DNA from: a virus
IMG/VR virus record: IMGVR_UViG_3300045242_000089
Coordinates: 1 to 39,249 of that record
Strand: one strand, 5' to 3'
Length of the DNA stretch: 39,249 bases
Made by a program: the position numbers and the translations under genes. The notes under the pieces are model-generated. The model worked only from the letters and a program-made list of their open reading frames with translations. It was not told the DNA's origin and made no database searches. Positions within the stretch are counted from its first letter, which is position 1; each line of letters opens with the position of its first letter. This document shows positions 3,156-33,657 of the stretch, piece after piece.

Positions 3156-3791
3156 ATGAATGCGTTCTACACATACCTGCACAAAAAGCCAGGAGGCGCT
3201 GTGTTCTATGTCGGCAAGGGCATGGGAGACAGGGCCTATTCTCACGACAATCGCAATATCCATTGGCGGCGAACGGTAGCGAAATACGGACTTGAAGTGC
3301 AGATCATGTCGTATTGGGACACAGAGCAAGAAGCATTCGAGCAGGAAAAACTTCTGATCAAAAGTTTCCGAGACAGCGGCATCAAGCTGGTAAATCTAAC
3401 CAATGGCGGCGAAGGTTCAAGCGGCTATAAGTGGAACGATGAGCAGAAGGAGCGCTGGCGCGCGGCAAATGCACAAAATGGAATGCTTGGTAAAAAACAT
3501 TCCGACTCGGCCAAAGCGAAAATGAGCCTCAAGAGCGCCGGCCACAAAACATCGGAAGCAACGCGCGCAAAGATATCCGAAAAGATGAAAGTACGAGTTT
3601 TTTCAGAAACGCACAGGAAAAATCTAAGCGTTGCCACAACTGGCGGCAATAATCCAACTGCCAGGCCATGCGTGGTGAACGGCATCAGTTTCGATTGTGC
3701 GCAAGCAGCGGCAACCGCAATGGGAGTTTGCAAATCCACCGTGGCGCGTAAATGCAAGCGCGGAGACAATCCGCTTTTCCAGTACGTCTAG
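3156..3791 (+). CDS. Free-standing GIY-YIG homing endonuclease with NUMOD repeats
   Basis: The 211-residue product begins with a GIY-YIG-type domain (YTYLHKKPGGAVFYVGKGMG, about residues 4-23) and continues with an Arg and a Glu region (EQEKLLIKSF) and the typical NLTNGGEG segment. Three NUMOD3-like DNA-binding repeats follow (GMLGKKHSDSAKAKM, HKTSEATRAKISE, VFSETHRKNLS), then a C-terminal NUMOD1-like helix-turn-helix (FDCAQAAATAMGVCKSTVAR). Such enzymes cut intron- or insert-less alleles so that the gene is copied by repair. It sits exactly between the coat stop (TAG 3141-3143) and the next small gene and does not disrupt the coat protein. It is more AT-rich than its neighbours, in line with horizontal gain. 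Confidence 0.92.
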   Translation: MNAFYTYLHKKPGGAVFYVGKGMGDRAYSHDNRNIHWRRTVAKYGLEVQIMSYWDTEQEAFEQEKLLIKSFRDSGIKLVNLTNGGEGSSGYKWNDEQKERWRAANAQNGMLGKKHSDSAKAKMSLKSAGHKTSEATRAKISEKMKVRVFSETHRKNLSVATTGGNNPTARPCVVNGISFDCAQAAATAMGVCKSTVARKCKRGDNPLFQYV

Positions 3792-24510: not shown

Positions 24511-25197
24511 TCATTGCGCTGCTCCACGCATTAACCTCCAGCCTTTTGTGTAGTAGTACTCACATATCCTGCATCGGCGTGTTCCGGCTTTTAGAACGCG
24601 AGTGTTTTTTTCATTAAACTCATGTCCATGATCGCAATGTGTCTTTGCCGCATTTGTTACGGTTATATTTGCCCCTCTATGGGTATTGGTGTTGTGACTC
24701 ACTGTGTTATTTCGTACCGGTTCCGAATGGTAGGGAATATGTTTCCATGTTTTCCTGTTTTTAATATTGTAGATAGTGGTTTCTGTAGTTCCGTAATCCT
24801 TCGCAATCTTACCGTACGGCCTTTCGTCATTGAGAATCGCTTTAACCGATGTCTCGTTTAATTGTGAGTTACCATTTCCTTCGCCTACCGCACAATTGCC
24901 GCTGCGCATCGTGTCTATAGCGTTCTCTTTTGGAGTGCCTGCGTATAAGTGGTCGGGGTTCACACATCTTCTGTTATTACATTTATGACATATGAAAAGA
25001 CCATCAGGGACAGGACCGTTGTGCAAAGTCCACGAAAAGACGTGCGCTCTATAGTGCTTATATTTAATATCGAGTCGGCCATATCCATCTTTTTCCGTTG
25101 AACCTAGCCAATTCCAGCAACTCTCTGTTTTTTCGACCCGCAACCAAAAGCGCTCGATTGGATCAACAAATCGTCCAAGCAAGGTATGCCTTATCAT
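24511..25197 (-). CDS. HNH endonuclease with AP2/HTH-type middle and zinc-knuckle tail
   Basis: 228 residues from ATG 25197. An HNH domain occupies about residues 20-95 (CWNWLGSTEKDGYGRLDIKY, YRAHVFSWTLHNGPVPDGLF, ICHKCNNRRCVNPDHLYAGT, with PDHL as the final histidine motif). A resolvase-like HTH follows (QLNETSVKAILNDERPYGKI, DYGTTETTIYNIKNRKTWKH). The C-terminus has a zinc motif (HCDHGHEFNEKNTR, RRCRICEYYYTKG). It is AT-rich relative to the operon and overlaps its upstream neighbour by ATGA. It is probably a homing nuclease that entered the early operon. Confidence 0.9.
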   Translation of the reverse strand: MIRHTLLGRFVDPIERFWLRVEKTESCWNWLGSTEKDGYGRLDIKYKHYRAHVFSWTLHNGPVPDGLFICHKCNNRRCVNPDHLYAGTPKENAIDTMRSGNCAVGEGNGNSQLNETSVKAILNDERPYGKIAKDYGTTETTIYNIKNRKTWKHIPYHSEPVRNNTVSHNTNTHRGANITVTNAAKTHCDHGHEFNEKNTRVLKAGTRRCRICEYYYTKGWRLMRGAAQ

Positions 25198-29440: not shown

Positions 29441-29465
29441 TTTCAACGCGCGGCCCGAGTGCTAA

Positions 29466-29633
29466 ACTGCCGCGCAACCGGCGCGCGGCGGTTCCCTCCC
29501 CACAGCCGGCCAGGCCCTGGATTTAACGGCGCTCGCGTACCGTCTGGGGCCGATTGAACGCTCGACCGCGCGTCTCTCCTATCAGCGCGCCGGAGAAGCT
29601 AGGCCGGGGTCGGGCGTGACGTCCGCCCCGGCC
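29466..29633 (+). other. Noncoding stretch with two strong hairpins
   Basis: Between 29410 and 29651 no gene is supported. ACTGCCGCGC (29466-29475) pairs completely with GCGCGGCGGT (29483-29492, one G-U pair). GGCCGGGG (29602-29609) pairs perfectly with CCCCGGCC (29626-29633). Neither has a T-run. They may be leader structures for the small gene at 29652. Confidence 0.5.
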
Positions 29634-29651
29634 GCCCACATCGAGGTGCAC

Positions 29652-29831
29652 TTGATTATCAGCCGCAGAAAGCCCGGACCGGACCACTCGGCGGTGATGC
29701 GCGGGATTGCGCGCATGCGCCGGTTCGAGCGGGAGCGGGCGCAGTGGATTCGAGAACATCAGGGCGCGACCCACGACGAGCTGCGCCGGGCGATGGATTT
29801 GCTTGCGGCGCGGCTGACGCCTGGGTGGTAG
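29652..29831 (+). CDS. Small basic helical protein
   Basis: 59 residues from TTG 29652 behind GAGGTG; a GTG at 29646 is an alternative, and an ORF start at 29616 lies within a hairpin. MIISRRKPGPDHSAVMRGIA, RMRRFERERAQWIREHQGAT and HDELRRAMDLLAARL are very basic helices, suggesting nucleic-acid binding. Not recognised. It ends just before the promoter of the C4-like RNA. Confidence 0.5.
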   Translation: MIISRRKPGPDHSAVMRGIARMRRFERERAQWIREHQGATHDELRRAMDLLAARLTPGW

Positions 29832-29837
29832 GCGCGT

Positions 29838-29866
29838 TTGATTTTTCGCCCCGCCTGCGCTAGGAT
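29838..29866 (+). promoter_or_regulatory. Promoter of the C4-like RNA
   Basis: TTGATT (29838-29843), 17 bases, then TAGGAT (29861-29866). The -10 hexamer is identical to that of the leftward early promoter. The start predicted about seven bases downstream coincides with the first base pairs of the C4-like structure. Confidence 0.65.
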
Positions 29867-29870
29867 TTGA

Positions 29871-29945
29871 TCTCGTCCGGCCTGCAACCGGATAGTCCGA
29901 AGCGAGACCAGCCCCGCCGGTGCCCACTACACTGGCGGGCGCTCG
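29871..29945 (+). ncRNA. C4-type antisense RNA candidate
   Basis: Two hairpins are seen directly. The first is a closing stem TCTCG (29871-29875) with CGAGA (29903-29907) around TCCGG/CCGGA (29876-29880/29888-29892) with loop CCTGCAA. The second is CCCGCCGGTG (29913-29922) with CACTGGCGGG (29930-29939) and loop CCCACTA. From memory this matches the Rfam C4 consensus closely (CCTGCAACC loop, then CCCGCC...GGCGGGCG stem). C4 of phages P1/P7 is an antisense RNA that blocks translation of the ant operon. The second loop is perfectly complementary to TAGTGGG at 29961-29967, overlapping the ribosome-binding site of the next gene. Confidence 0.72.
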
Positions 29946-29977
29946 CCTTCCCGCAACCCTTAGTGGGGGAGACCAAA

Positions 29978-30433
29978 ATGAGTACCTATTCGGAAAAACT
30001 GCGCGACCCGCGCTGGCAGAAAACTCGTCTCGAAATTTTGGCGAGGGATTATTGGTCGTGTCAGATTTGCCACGATACAAAAACCACATTGAATGTCCAC
30101 CACCGGTATTACGATTACGGCGTTGAGCCGTGGGACTATCCCAAATCCGCGCTTATTACGCTGTGCCAGCCGTGCCATGAATTAGAGGAAAAATACAAGC
30201 GGGATTGGGATGCGACATTCATAAGAACAATGCGCTCTGCCGGTTGTTTTAATCGGGAATTGTCTGCATTGGACGAGCTTTTTTCAGTTGAGGAATTGAA
30301 CGAGTATGACTGGCGCATTTTGACCGACTATTTGCGCGTGCTCCTGCCAAATAGAAAAACGTCGCCAGAGTGGGACAAAATATCGCGGGAGGTTATCCAA
30401 TCATGGCTGGATCAGCGCAATAAAGCTGCCTGA
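29978..30433 (+). CDS. HNH endonuclease under a C4-like RNA leader
   Basis: 151 residues from ATG 29978 behind GGGGGAGACCAAA. Classic HNH features: RDPRWQKTRLEILARDYWSC, QICHDTKTTLNVHHRYYDYG (CxxC...HH) and ITLCQPCHELEEKYK (second CxxCH). The remaining C-terminal half (ELSALDELFSVEELNEYDWR) is helical and family-specific. It may nick DNA in homing, replication or packaging. The SD region is paired in a CUUCCC/GGGGGAG stem and is also complementary to the C4 loop, so translation is likely tightly regulated. Three bases separate it from the DUF1376 gene. Confidence 0.88.
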   Translation: MSTYSEKLRDPRWQKTRLEILARDYWSCQICHDTKTTLNVHHRYYDYGVEPWDYPKSALITLCQPCHELEEKYKRDWDATFIRTMRSAGCFNRELSALDELFSVEELNEYDWRILTDYLRVLLPNRKTSPEWDKISREVIQSWLDQRNKAA

Positions 30434-30435
30434 CA

Positions 30436-31350
30436 ATGGATAAACCGCTGCCCGCGCCGCTCGTTCCAGCCGAGGTAGATTTACGCGATTTTCCGTACAT
30501 GCCGCTCGACATTGAACGGCTGATGCAGTCGGATTTCTGGGCGCTTTCAACCCCCGAGCAATTCAAAGCCGGACTGGCGCTGTGGTGTCACGCATGGCAC
30601 GCGATACCCGCGGGATCGCTTGACGTCAACGAGAAAGTGCTCGCTTTACATTCAGGGGCCGGCATACGCTGGAGGTATGTACGTGACTTCGCTTTACACG
30701 GCTTTATTCTGTGCTCAGACAACCGCTATTACCATCCTGTAATCGCAGAAAAGGCAATAGAATCATTCAGAAAGCGCAAAAGCGCCAGCAAGAAGGCGAA
30801 AGCCGCCGCGAACGCACGATGGATGCTTGAAGCAGTGCATAAGCAATGCACAAGCAATGCTCCAAGCAATGCTCCAAGCAATGCACAAGCAATGCTTGAA
30901 AATGCTAAGAGAAGAGAAGAGAAGGGAAGAGAAGGGAAGGGTTTACCGAGCACCGTACTTAATCAGCCCGAAAAGCCGAACCCGAAAACCCGAAAACCCA
31001 AACCCCTCCCCGAAGAGATTCCAAAACCCGAACCCCCGAAAACCAGATGGTGGGACACGGATGCCGGAGTCGTTTCGACCGCCAAAACCCTCAACCTGCC
31101 GTCAATCACCGGTGAAACCATCCACGCCATGAAAGATCGGTGCTTCGCCGAGATCGAGCGACTCAAAGCCGCAGGCGCAACCCCGCTGCCAGCCATCAAA
31201 CCACCGTCCTGCGCTCGCTGCGGTACACCGTTCGCCAACGGCGGATTCACGTCCATGTCCAGCGGCAACGTGTGTAACCCGTGCTATGCCGCCTACCTGC
31301 GTTCTGAATGGCAACCGCCTCAACCCGCTCAGACTCCACCGGCAGTCTGA
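30436..31350 (+). CDS. DUF1376 (YdaU-like) replication-type protein with internal iterons
   Basis: 304 residues. Residues 15-110 match DUF1376: DLRDFPYMPLDIERLMQSDF, WALSTPEQFKAGLALWCHAW, RDFALHGFILCSDNRYYHPV, IAEKAIESFRKRK. This domain is found in phage proteins at the replication-initiator position. A low-complexity part (SNAPSNAPSNAQA) corresponds to DNA repeats. It is followed by a Lys/Pro-rich linker and a C-terminal zinc ribbon (CARCGTPFANGG, SGNVCNPCYAAY). It probably binds the origin inside its own gene, as lambda O does; that is inference. No helicase or primase gene is evident nearby. Confidence 0.8.
   Translation: MDKPLPAPLVPAEVDLRDFPYMPLDIERLMQSDFWALSTPEQFKAGLALWCHAWHAIPAGSLDVNEKVLALHSGAGIRWRYVRDFALHGFILCSDNRYYHPVIAEKAIESFRKRKSASKKAKAAANARWMLEAVHKQCTSNAPSNAPSNAQAMLENAKRREEKGREGKGLPSTVLNQPEKPNPKTRKPKPLPEEIPKPEPPKTRWWDTDAGVVSTAKTLNLPSITGETIHAMKDRCFAEIERLKAAGATPLPAIKPPSCARCGTPFANGGFTSMSSGNVCNPCYAAYLRSEWQPPQPAQTPPAV
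30830..30895 (+). repeat. Iteron-like repeats and purine tract: candidate replication origin
   Basis: AAGCAATGC occurs at 30841, 30852, 30864, 30876 and 30887, with a degenerate AAGCAGTGC at 30830: six copies at 11-12 base spacing, one per helical turn. Immediately downstream (30907-30941) is a purine-only strand of GAAGA/GAAGG repeats. Direct repeats next to an easily distorted tract inside an initiator-type gene is the lambda-ori arrangement. Confidence 0.6.
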
Positions 31351-31531: not shown

Positions 31532-31621
31532 CTGCGGGTAACTTTTTGCGCTATAGTTGCGCTGTGCGTTCCGACGGGAGCGCGCACGTTGTTCCCAGGC
31601 CGCCGGCGGCGCTCGTATCGC

Positions 31622-31656
31622 TGCTGGCGCCTTCAACCCATACGAGGGGGCCAGCG
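31622..31656 (+). promoter_or_regulatory. Shine-Dalgarno-sequestering hairpin
   Basis: TGCTGGCGCCTTC (31622-31634) pairs with GAGGGGGCCAGCG (31644-31656) with one internal mismatch and two G-U pairs, loop AACCCATAC. The whole SD (GAGGGGG) is inside the stem; the start codon at 31658 is just outside. Confidence 0.6.
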
Positions 31657-33099: not shown

Positions 33100-33178
33100 C
33101 CGCTTAACCAGGCTAAGCGGATTTGAAAGAGCGTGCTAAACTGACCCTATCTCACGTCCGCTTGATTTGGTTAAGCGG
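33100..33178. promoter_or_regulatory. Pair of 21-bp operator-like dyads at the start of the late region
   Basis: CCGCTTAACCAGGCTAAGCGG at 33100-33120 and, on the other strand, CCGCTTAACCAAATCAAGCGG at 33178-33158 share 16 of their end bases and identical length. They are in opposite orientation, 58 bases centre to centre. TTGAAA at 33124-33129 lies between them, with a poor -10. They could be operators of the late promoter or RNA hairpins for antitermination. Confidence 0.55.
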
Positions 33179-33211
33179 AAGGCACTGAAAAGCCTAATCG
33201 GAGCGTCCTTG

Positions 33212-33310
33212 AACCTTTCCGCCCTCCACGTACCCATTGACCCAAGTCAGGTCTCCATGCCTGCGCTCCGGGAATTTTCAGCTTTGGGCGACGTGGAGGC
33301 CGAAAGGGTT
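33212..33310 (+). promoter_or_regulatory. Long-stem leader hiding the ribosome-binding site of the 33316 gene
   Basis: AACCTTTCCGCCCTCCACGT (33212-33231) pairs with ACGTGGAGGCCGAAAGGGTT (33291-33310) over about 18 pairs with two bulges and one mismatch, closing a 59-base loop. AAAGGG (33303-33308), the SD for ATG 33316, is in the stem. Confidence 0.6.
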
Positions 33311-33315
33311 TAACC

Positions 33316-33657
33316 ATGACGAATGAAGGGTTGAAGAAAGCGCGCGAAAAAATGGCCGCGATGCGCGCGGCTGGAATCAAACCGCAACCGGCGGCAAAAC
33401 AGGAGAGAACCGCAGAACAGCAGCAAAAGGTGGATGCTTATGTGGAAAATATCCCCGTATCTGCCCGCAACATCTGCCAGAAAGCGTTTGCTGGCGAAGG
33501 TGGCGCGATGAACGCAATTCGTGCGAAATGCTTGGACTGTTCGTGCTGGCAACGGGAGGAAATCACCTATTGCCGCGTTTTTGCGTGCCCACTGTGGAAG
33601 TGGCGCCCGTATCAACCTGGGACCGGCGACAGCGAACCGGAAACAGCCGCAATTTGA
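33316..33657 (+). CDS. Zinc-motif phage protein upstream of packaging genes
   Basis: 113 residues from ATG 33316. The N-terminus is basic and disordered (KKAREKMAAMRAAGIKPQPA). The C-terminal half has the conserved phage pattern AKCLDCSCWQREEITYCRVF, ACPLWKWRPYQPG, with five or six cysteines for one zinc site. Homologous-looking proteins are common just upstream of small terminase genes in proteobacterial phages; the role is unknown. Its SD is hidden in a long stem, so expression is probably controlled post-transcriptionally. Confidence 0.75.
   Translation: MTNEGLKKAREKMAAMRAAGIKPQPAAKQERTAEQQQKVDAYVENIPVSARNICQKAFAGEGGAMNAIRAKCLDCSCWQREEITYCRVFACPLWKWRPYQPGTGDSEPETAAI

Follow-up and report, generated by a model that had tools for sequence, protein, structure and literature searches.

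A phage leader hairpin whose loop covaries with the downstream Shine-Dalgarno region is very likely a translation switch of replication operons

Replication operons in a group of environmental phages are preceded by a leader RNA in which a hairpin loop and the Shine-Dalgarno (SD) region of the next gene change together and remain complementary. In all likelihood the hairpin is a genuine translation switch, from an RNA family that is not yet in databases. The element was studied in a 39,249-bp virus record (hereafter the window, meaning the whole stretch of DNA analysed) with P22-like features, namely a portal protein (phrog_156), an Erf annealing protein and an exonuclease. In the reading that we prefer, the element is the 5′ leader of a replication operon, and pairing of its loop with the SD region probably blocks ribosome entry.

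An earlier sequence-only reading had proposed a promoter, two hairpins, an antisense loop and an SD target at this locus, and direct reading of the sequence confirms their coordinates. The features are the following.

29616–29831, plus strand: small conserved ORF adjoining the promoter upstream, found at 15 viral loci; its conserved portion begins at TTG, ~29653
29838–29866, plus strand: putative sigma-70-like promoter, TTGATT-17-TAGGAT, read from the sequence; most relatives also carry such hexamers at that spacing to the loop
29876–29892, plus strand: hairpin 1, stem TCCGG/CCGGA and loop CCTGCAA, at the predicted 5′ end of the RNA
29902–29946, plus strand: hairpin 2, from alignment, pair counts and predicted folds
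29923–29929, plus strand: 7-nt antisense loop CCCACTA, complementary at 7/7 positions to 29961–29967
29961–29967, plus strand: target TAGTGGG, overlapping the SD, ending 10 nt before the ATG at 29978 and covarying with the loop
29978–30433, plus strand: HNH endonuclease gene, the first cistron in the window and absent in L043 (PHROGs HNH families, E 2e-13 and weaker)
30436–31350, plus strand: replication/primosomal protein with a DUF1376 N-terminus (Pfam DUF1376; phrog_22470 replication protein, E 1e-31)

The putative promoter has its -35 hexamer TTGATT at 29838–29843 and its -10 hexamer TAGGAT at 29861–29866, separated by a 17-nt spacer. By consensus alone it is weak, the best -35/-10 score being 8/12, which about one in five random 65-nt stretches reaches or exceeds. 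Most relatives carry TTGATT, TTGAAA or TTGACA with TAGGAT, TATTCT or TAGCAT, and the distance to the loop is unchanged. The two hairpins are joined in the window by a linker of ~10 nt. Hairpin 2 consists of an outer stem (GCGAG 29902–29906/CTCGC 29942–29946) that is nearly invariant across elements, an internal loop ACCA(C)GCC, and a covarying inner stem of 10 bp (29913–29922/29930–29939); downstream follow a 14-nt spacer, TAGTGGGGGAG and the ATG at 29978. The first reading had found no partner for the loop of hairpin 1; nothing consistent nearby serves as one except the loop's own self-complementary core (TGCA or GGCC), and kissing dimerisation through this core is only a guess.

Taken alone, the loop–SD match in the window is weak to moderate evidence. 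The window has a single occurrence of the loop/target pattern with a gap of 10–40 nt, 0/100 shuffles have any, and the fold of the element has a z of -2.5 to -2.9; in a broader scan, 7-nt-loop hairpins had a 7/7 complement 20–45 nt downstream by chance in about 0.5% of cases. The element stands far above chance because it is conserved, with covariation, in relatives.

Relatives were collected by a search with the replication protein, which gave L043–L045, and by using the conserved small upstream protein as an anchor, which led to the 15 viral loci mentioned above. As a control, the database was scanned with a pattern whose loop core was left unspecified; this matched 46 contigs. Eight of them have stems of 9 bp or longer, and each of these eight shows a 7/7 loop–SD complement; in the other 38 the stem is at most 6 bp and the complement at most 6 nt. 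The same scan added L076, with a TTGACA promoter and a differing hairpin 1. The window and nine further phage loci share the leader, with 7/7 loop–SD pairing in 10/10. Five loop sequences occur among these ten loci: CCCACTA in the window and, with the same SD target and changed stems, in L043 and L044; CCATGAA in L045, where the SD region correspondingly reads TTCATGG; CCTACCA/TGGTAGG (loop/target) in L055 and L062; CCCAACA/TGTTGGG in L059 and L064; and CCCAATA/TATTGGG in L063 and L065, which are identical in sequence. In every locus the target falls within the SD region; its end is 7–12 nt before the ATG, and a nearly fixed distance of 23–31 nt separates it from the loop. L059 alone among the ten has an additional target copy, TGTTGGG at 3447, in the 5′ arm of hairpin 1.

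A covariance model built from hairpin 2 and the target (R1) recognised an eleventh member outside its training set, L126, at 55.9 bits. Its outer-stem pair is changed yet paired (CCGAG/CTCGG), and its 6-nt loop CCAGTA faces TACTGTGGG with only five contiguous pairs; given this imperfect pairing, the element may be decaying or different. All members are environmental virus contigs, nearly all with one common upstream gene, and form a small and related sample. Direct DNA similarity gave no relatives among public phages and plasmids, in the collections and at the sensitivities used: the matches were short and due to chance only, including one to an S. bongori plasmid near RepA (E = 5). An exact-core pattern scan gave three chance matches without the hairpin/SD arrangement, L046 was likewise discarded, and the one match in a scan of genome contigs was false. 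The leader is also missing from the HNH homologue L002 (57% identity) and from the distant CHC2-primase operons L136–L147.

The ten elements were aligned with MAFFT, and the structure, including the loop–target helix, was tested against shuffles; these ignore relatedness, so the counts from them are not probabilities. Across the full structure 98.9% of cells are paired, compared with 85% in shuffles, two-sided changes occur at eight pairs, and the covariation of 0.42 (0.14 in shuffles) was reached by 0/500 shuffles. Pairing collapses to 33–55% when partners are slid by 1 to 3 columns. In the loop–target helix 70/70 cells are paired over the ten loci, with two-sided changes at 4/7 positions, and both partners must have changed on at least four independent occasions to give the five loop/target sequences. 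The inner stem of hairpin 2 and hairpin 1 likewise covary, the latter being formed in 11/11 elements with about nine stem sequences, all fully paired. The perfect complementarity of CCCACTA to TAGTGGG claimed by the sequence-only reading is therefore real and also conserved and compensated at homologous loci; the compensatory changes that it had named as a check are present, as five matching pairs in 10/10 loci. Loop and SD sequences that change together and stay complementary are strong evidence of a functional contact.

The unit presumably regulated by the leader is the phage replication operon, whose replication genes belong to several unrelated types across the loci. A primosomal/DUF1376 protein is encoded downstream in the window, L043 and L063 (the operon of L076 resembles that of L063 on a reading of the sequence), replication initiation proteins in L044 and L045, a CHC2 primase with an AAA_25 helicase in L055 and L062, and an AAA_25 helicase in L059 and L064. 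The first cistron varies: it is the HNH gene in the window, where the replication gene begins 2 bp beyond the stop codon of HNH, small ORFs in other relatives, and in L043 the replication gene itself, directly behind the leader. Because of this variation, and of the absence of HNH in L043, the most plausible view of the HNH gene is that it was inserted between the leader and the replication gene. Of the earlier proposal that an HNH gene followed by a replication gene is regulated here, in place of an antirepressor, the position of the element before a replication operon is confirmed; HNH itself was probably not the client at the outset, and the replication/primosomal protein is likely the main one.

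Loop type tends to track the replication module. In L044 and L064, hairpin 1 and its flanks are almost identical and hairpin 2, target and downstream genes differ, a pattern from which hairpin 2, target and operon appear to have been exchanged as a cassette.

Other leader-like elements lie nearby. At 31553–31655 of the window a second element has the same design (5′ hairpin, 7-nt-loop hairpin, SD complement), with loop CTCGTAT at 31612–31618 and target ATACGAG from 31640; elements of this type precede a GIY-YIG endonuclease gene in L058 and L065, a gene missing in the window, and all three copies have one loop sequence, which gives no covariation support. Two HNH genes are also present in the window (24511–25197, minus strand, and 29978–30433); with the apparent remnant of the GIY-YIG unit, they suggest that endonuclease genes move about among these phages. 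L063 has a tandem second element at 1700–1772 (the same in L065), in which 10/11 hairpin pairs form and a loop CCCAACT corresponds to AGTTGGG. This target is located at the primosomal gene's own SD, behind a 22-codon ORF; the element scores only 11 bits with R1. A conserved structured leader at 29457–29640, starting from GTGCTAAACTG (extended -10-like), is found in the anchor loci, where its hairpin modules are exchangeable, and has a few compensatory pairs; folded by itself, the window copy is unremarkable given its composition, and its resemblance to the SAH riboswitch is weak (19 bits, far under the cut-off). A second GTGCTAAACTG leader at 33131–33318 continues with a hairpin and a long interrupted stem (AACCTTTC..CCTCCACGT / ACGTGGAGG..GAAAGGGTT) that ends just before the ATG at 33316 (z = -3.6).

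Transcription would begin just 5′ of hairpin 1, and the 7-nt loop of hairpin 2 would pair with the first gene's SD region and keep ribosomes from entering. The operon behind the leader, in the window HNH and then the replication protein, would be poorly translated, with possible loss to Rho-dependent termination, and silencing would extend to the next gene by coupling or polarity. The loop is unpaired in predicted ensembles and the 7-bp SD pairing has a bare-duplex energy of about -7 to -10 kcal/mol, so that SD occlusion would be a straightforward outcome; the target can pair locally instead, with a predicted unpaired probability of 0.22–0.78. Pairing may take place within one transcript, as a pseudoknot-like switch, or also between molecules after release of the leader, as in C4. 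Both may occur, since the partners lie on one RNA and specificity varies by cassette. These are two modes of the preferred explanation, and our confidence in either overlaps with our confidence in SD occlusion itself.

The first mode is a purely cis-acting pseudoknot that opens in response to a protein or ligand or through the kinetics of translation or transcription, following the logic of SD-sequestering riboswitches or autoregulatory phage leaders; we would put it just short of an even chance. It accords with the location of both partners on one RNA at nearly fixed spacing, and something could bind at the outer stem and internal loop GCGAGACC, which hardly vary. Proximity would favour cis pairing, but all seven loop bases pair, which would leave no linker inside the loop, and only ~8 nt separate the outer stem from the target in three loci. 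Full pairing of the loop and a short spacer would thus be less comfortable for an intramolecular knot. No known riboswitch class in Rfam 15 matched the window stretch or eight relatives, and the loop is unlikely to be a ligand pocket because its core varies while complementarity is kept.

In the second mode, to which we give tentative credence, the leader would be processed to a stable RNA of ~75–90 nt that silences the replication operon of related infecting phages, the loop/target variants being immunity specificities. The transcript order is that of P1, with c4 preceding its target, and loop length is fixed at 7 nt with full pairing, as is the case for kissing antisense loops. Five specificities exist, mismatched loop/target pairs between them are weaker in most combinations, and a small RNA would gain stability from hairpin 1 at its 5′ end. 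Against this, neither a terminator between the hairpins and the start codon nor a known processing site was found, and a trans-acting RNA would need processing because no terminator separates leader and gene. No tyrosine integrase is detectable in the window, which leaves lysogeny unproven, and a second upstream target comparable to P1 a1b1 or P4 seqA is lacking except for the TGTTGGG in hairpin 1 of L059. A modular RNA-based system of replication immunity, in which each module brings its own loop and SD and largely orthogonal 7-nt specificities silence like-typed competitors in trans, appears rather unlikely.

That the frame open from TTG 29867 in the window is an N-terminal extension of the HNH protein and the RNA features are incidental is very improbable, as several relatives have in-frame stops before the start and indels not in threes, the downstream proteins are unrelated and the stem changes are compensatory. 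Chance complementarity in a GC-rich leader, for which the 0.5% of hairpins noted above would speak, is hardly credible against 10/10 matching homologous loci with five loop sequences and a specific free-loop scan.

The result would add an RNA family that matches nothing in Rfam 15. As a natural family it is compact, offering five swappable specificities before several unrelated replication modules. With it one can test whether leader RNAs whose loops match an SD work in cis or as immunity RNAs that diffuse, and by what means phages retain control over replication modules that are exchanged. If the immunity reading is true, phages of this group silence the replication of like-typed competitors in trans.

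The sequence-only reading had likened the element to phage C4 RNA and was to be given up if both a C4 match and conserved loop/SD complementarity were lacking. The complementarity is strongly conserved, but as family membership the resemblance fails: with membership in Rfam C4 (RF01695) set at a covariance score of at least 45 bits, the window stretch and eight relatives gave no match at gathering or at E <= 10, in a search that recovered P1 C4 (68.8 bits) and its a1b1 element. The upstream a1/b1 element (RF03163), present in P1, had no match in the window stretch or the eight relatives, and R1 had none in P1. As in P1/P7 C4, a loop (b′ in C4) has the complement of the following gene's SD on the same transcript, the system is phage-borne and its specificity varies between relatives. 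The architecture differs, C4 having a closing stem around a UUCG-tetraloop hairpin and the b′ hairpin whereas the new element has two successive hairpins; the second pairing of C4, a′/a2, just 3′ of the RNA, is exact in P1, for which the positions of c4, a2, b2 and icd were taken from its record, and has no consistent counterpart near the new element. The client of C4 is the icd-ant antirepressor, that of the new element a replication operon, addressed by one 7-nt pairing. The new RNAs work like the b′/b2 half of C4 and are not C4 members; their mode is C4-like. C4 acts in trans as an RNA of ~77 nt, and in P1 it is processed by RNase P (PMC5320573).

The P4 CI RNA is likewise the leader RNA of a replication operon; derived from the leader, it shuts off the replication operon of its own transcript by pairing with seqA (upstream) and seqC (downstream), which leads to transcription termination (PMC4825925). 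In the new element the pairing covers the SD instead, and among the ten loci only the TGTTGGG copy of L059 is reminiscent of an upstream decoy or seqA-like site. SD-sequestering pseudoknot leaders, such as preQ1-type riboswitches and the T4 gene 32 leader, resemble the new element in that a loop of a leader hairpin pairs with a segment further downstream or a pseudoknot in the leader governs translation start. Phage antisense control of expression is also exerted by P22 sar RNA and lambda OOP RNA (PMC12197685); these are separate antisense transcripts, whereas the antisense segment of the new element is part of its own target's leader, on the sense strand.
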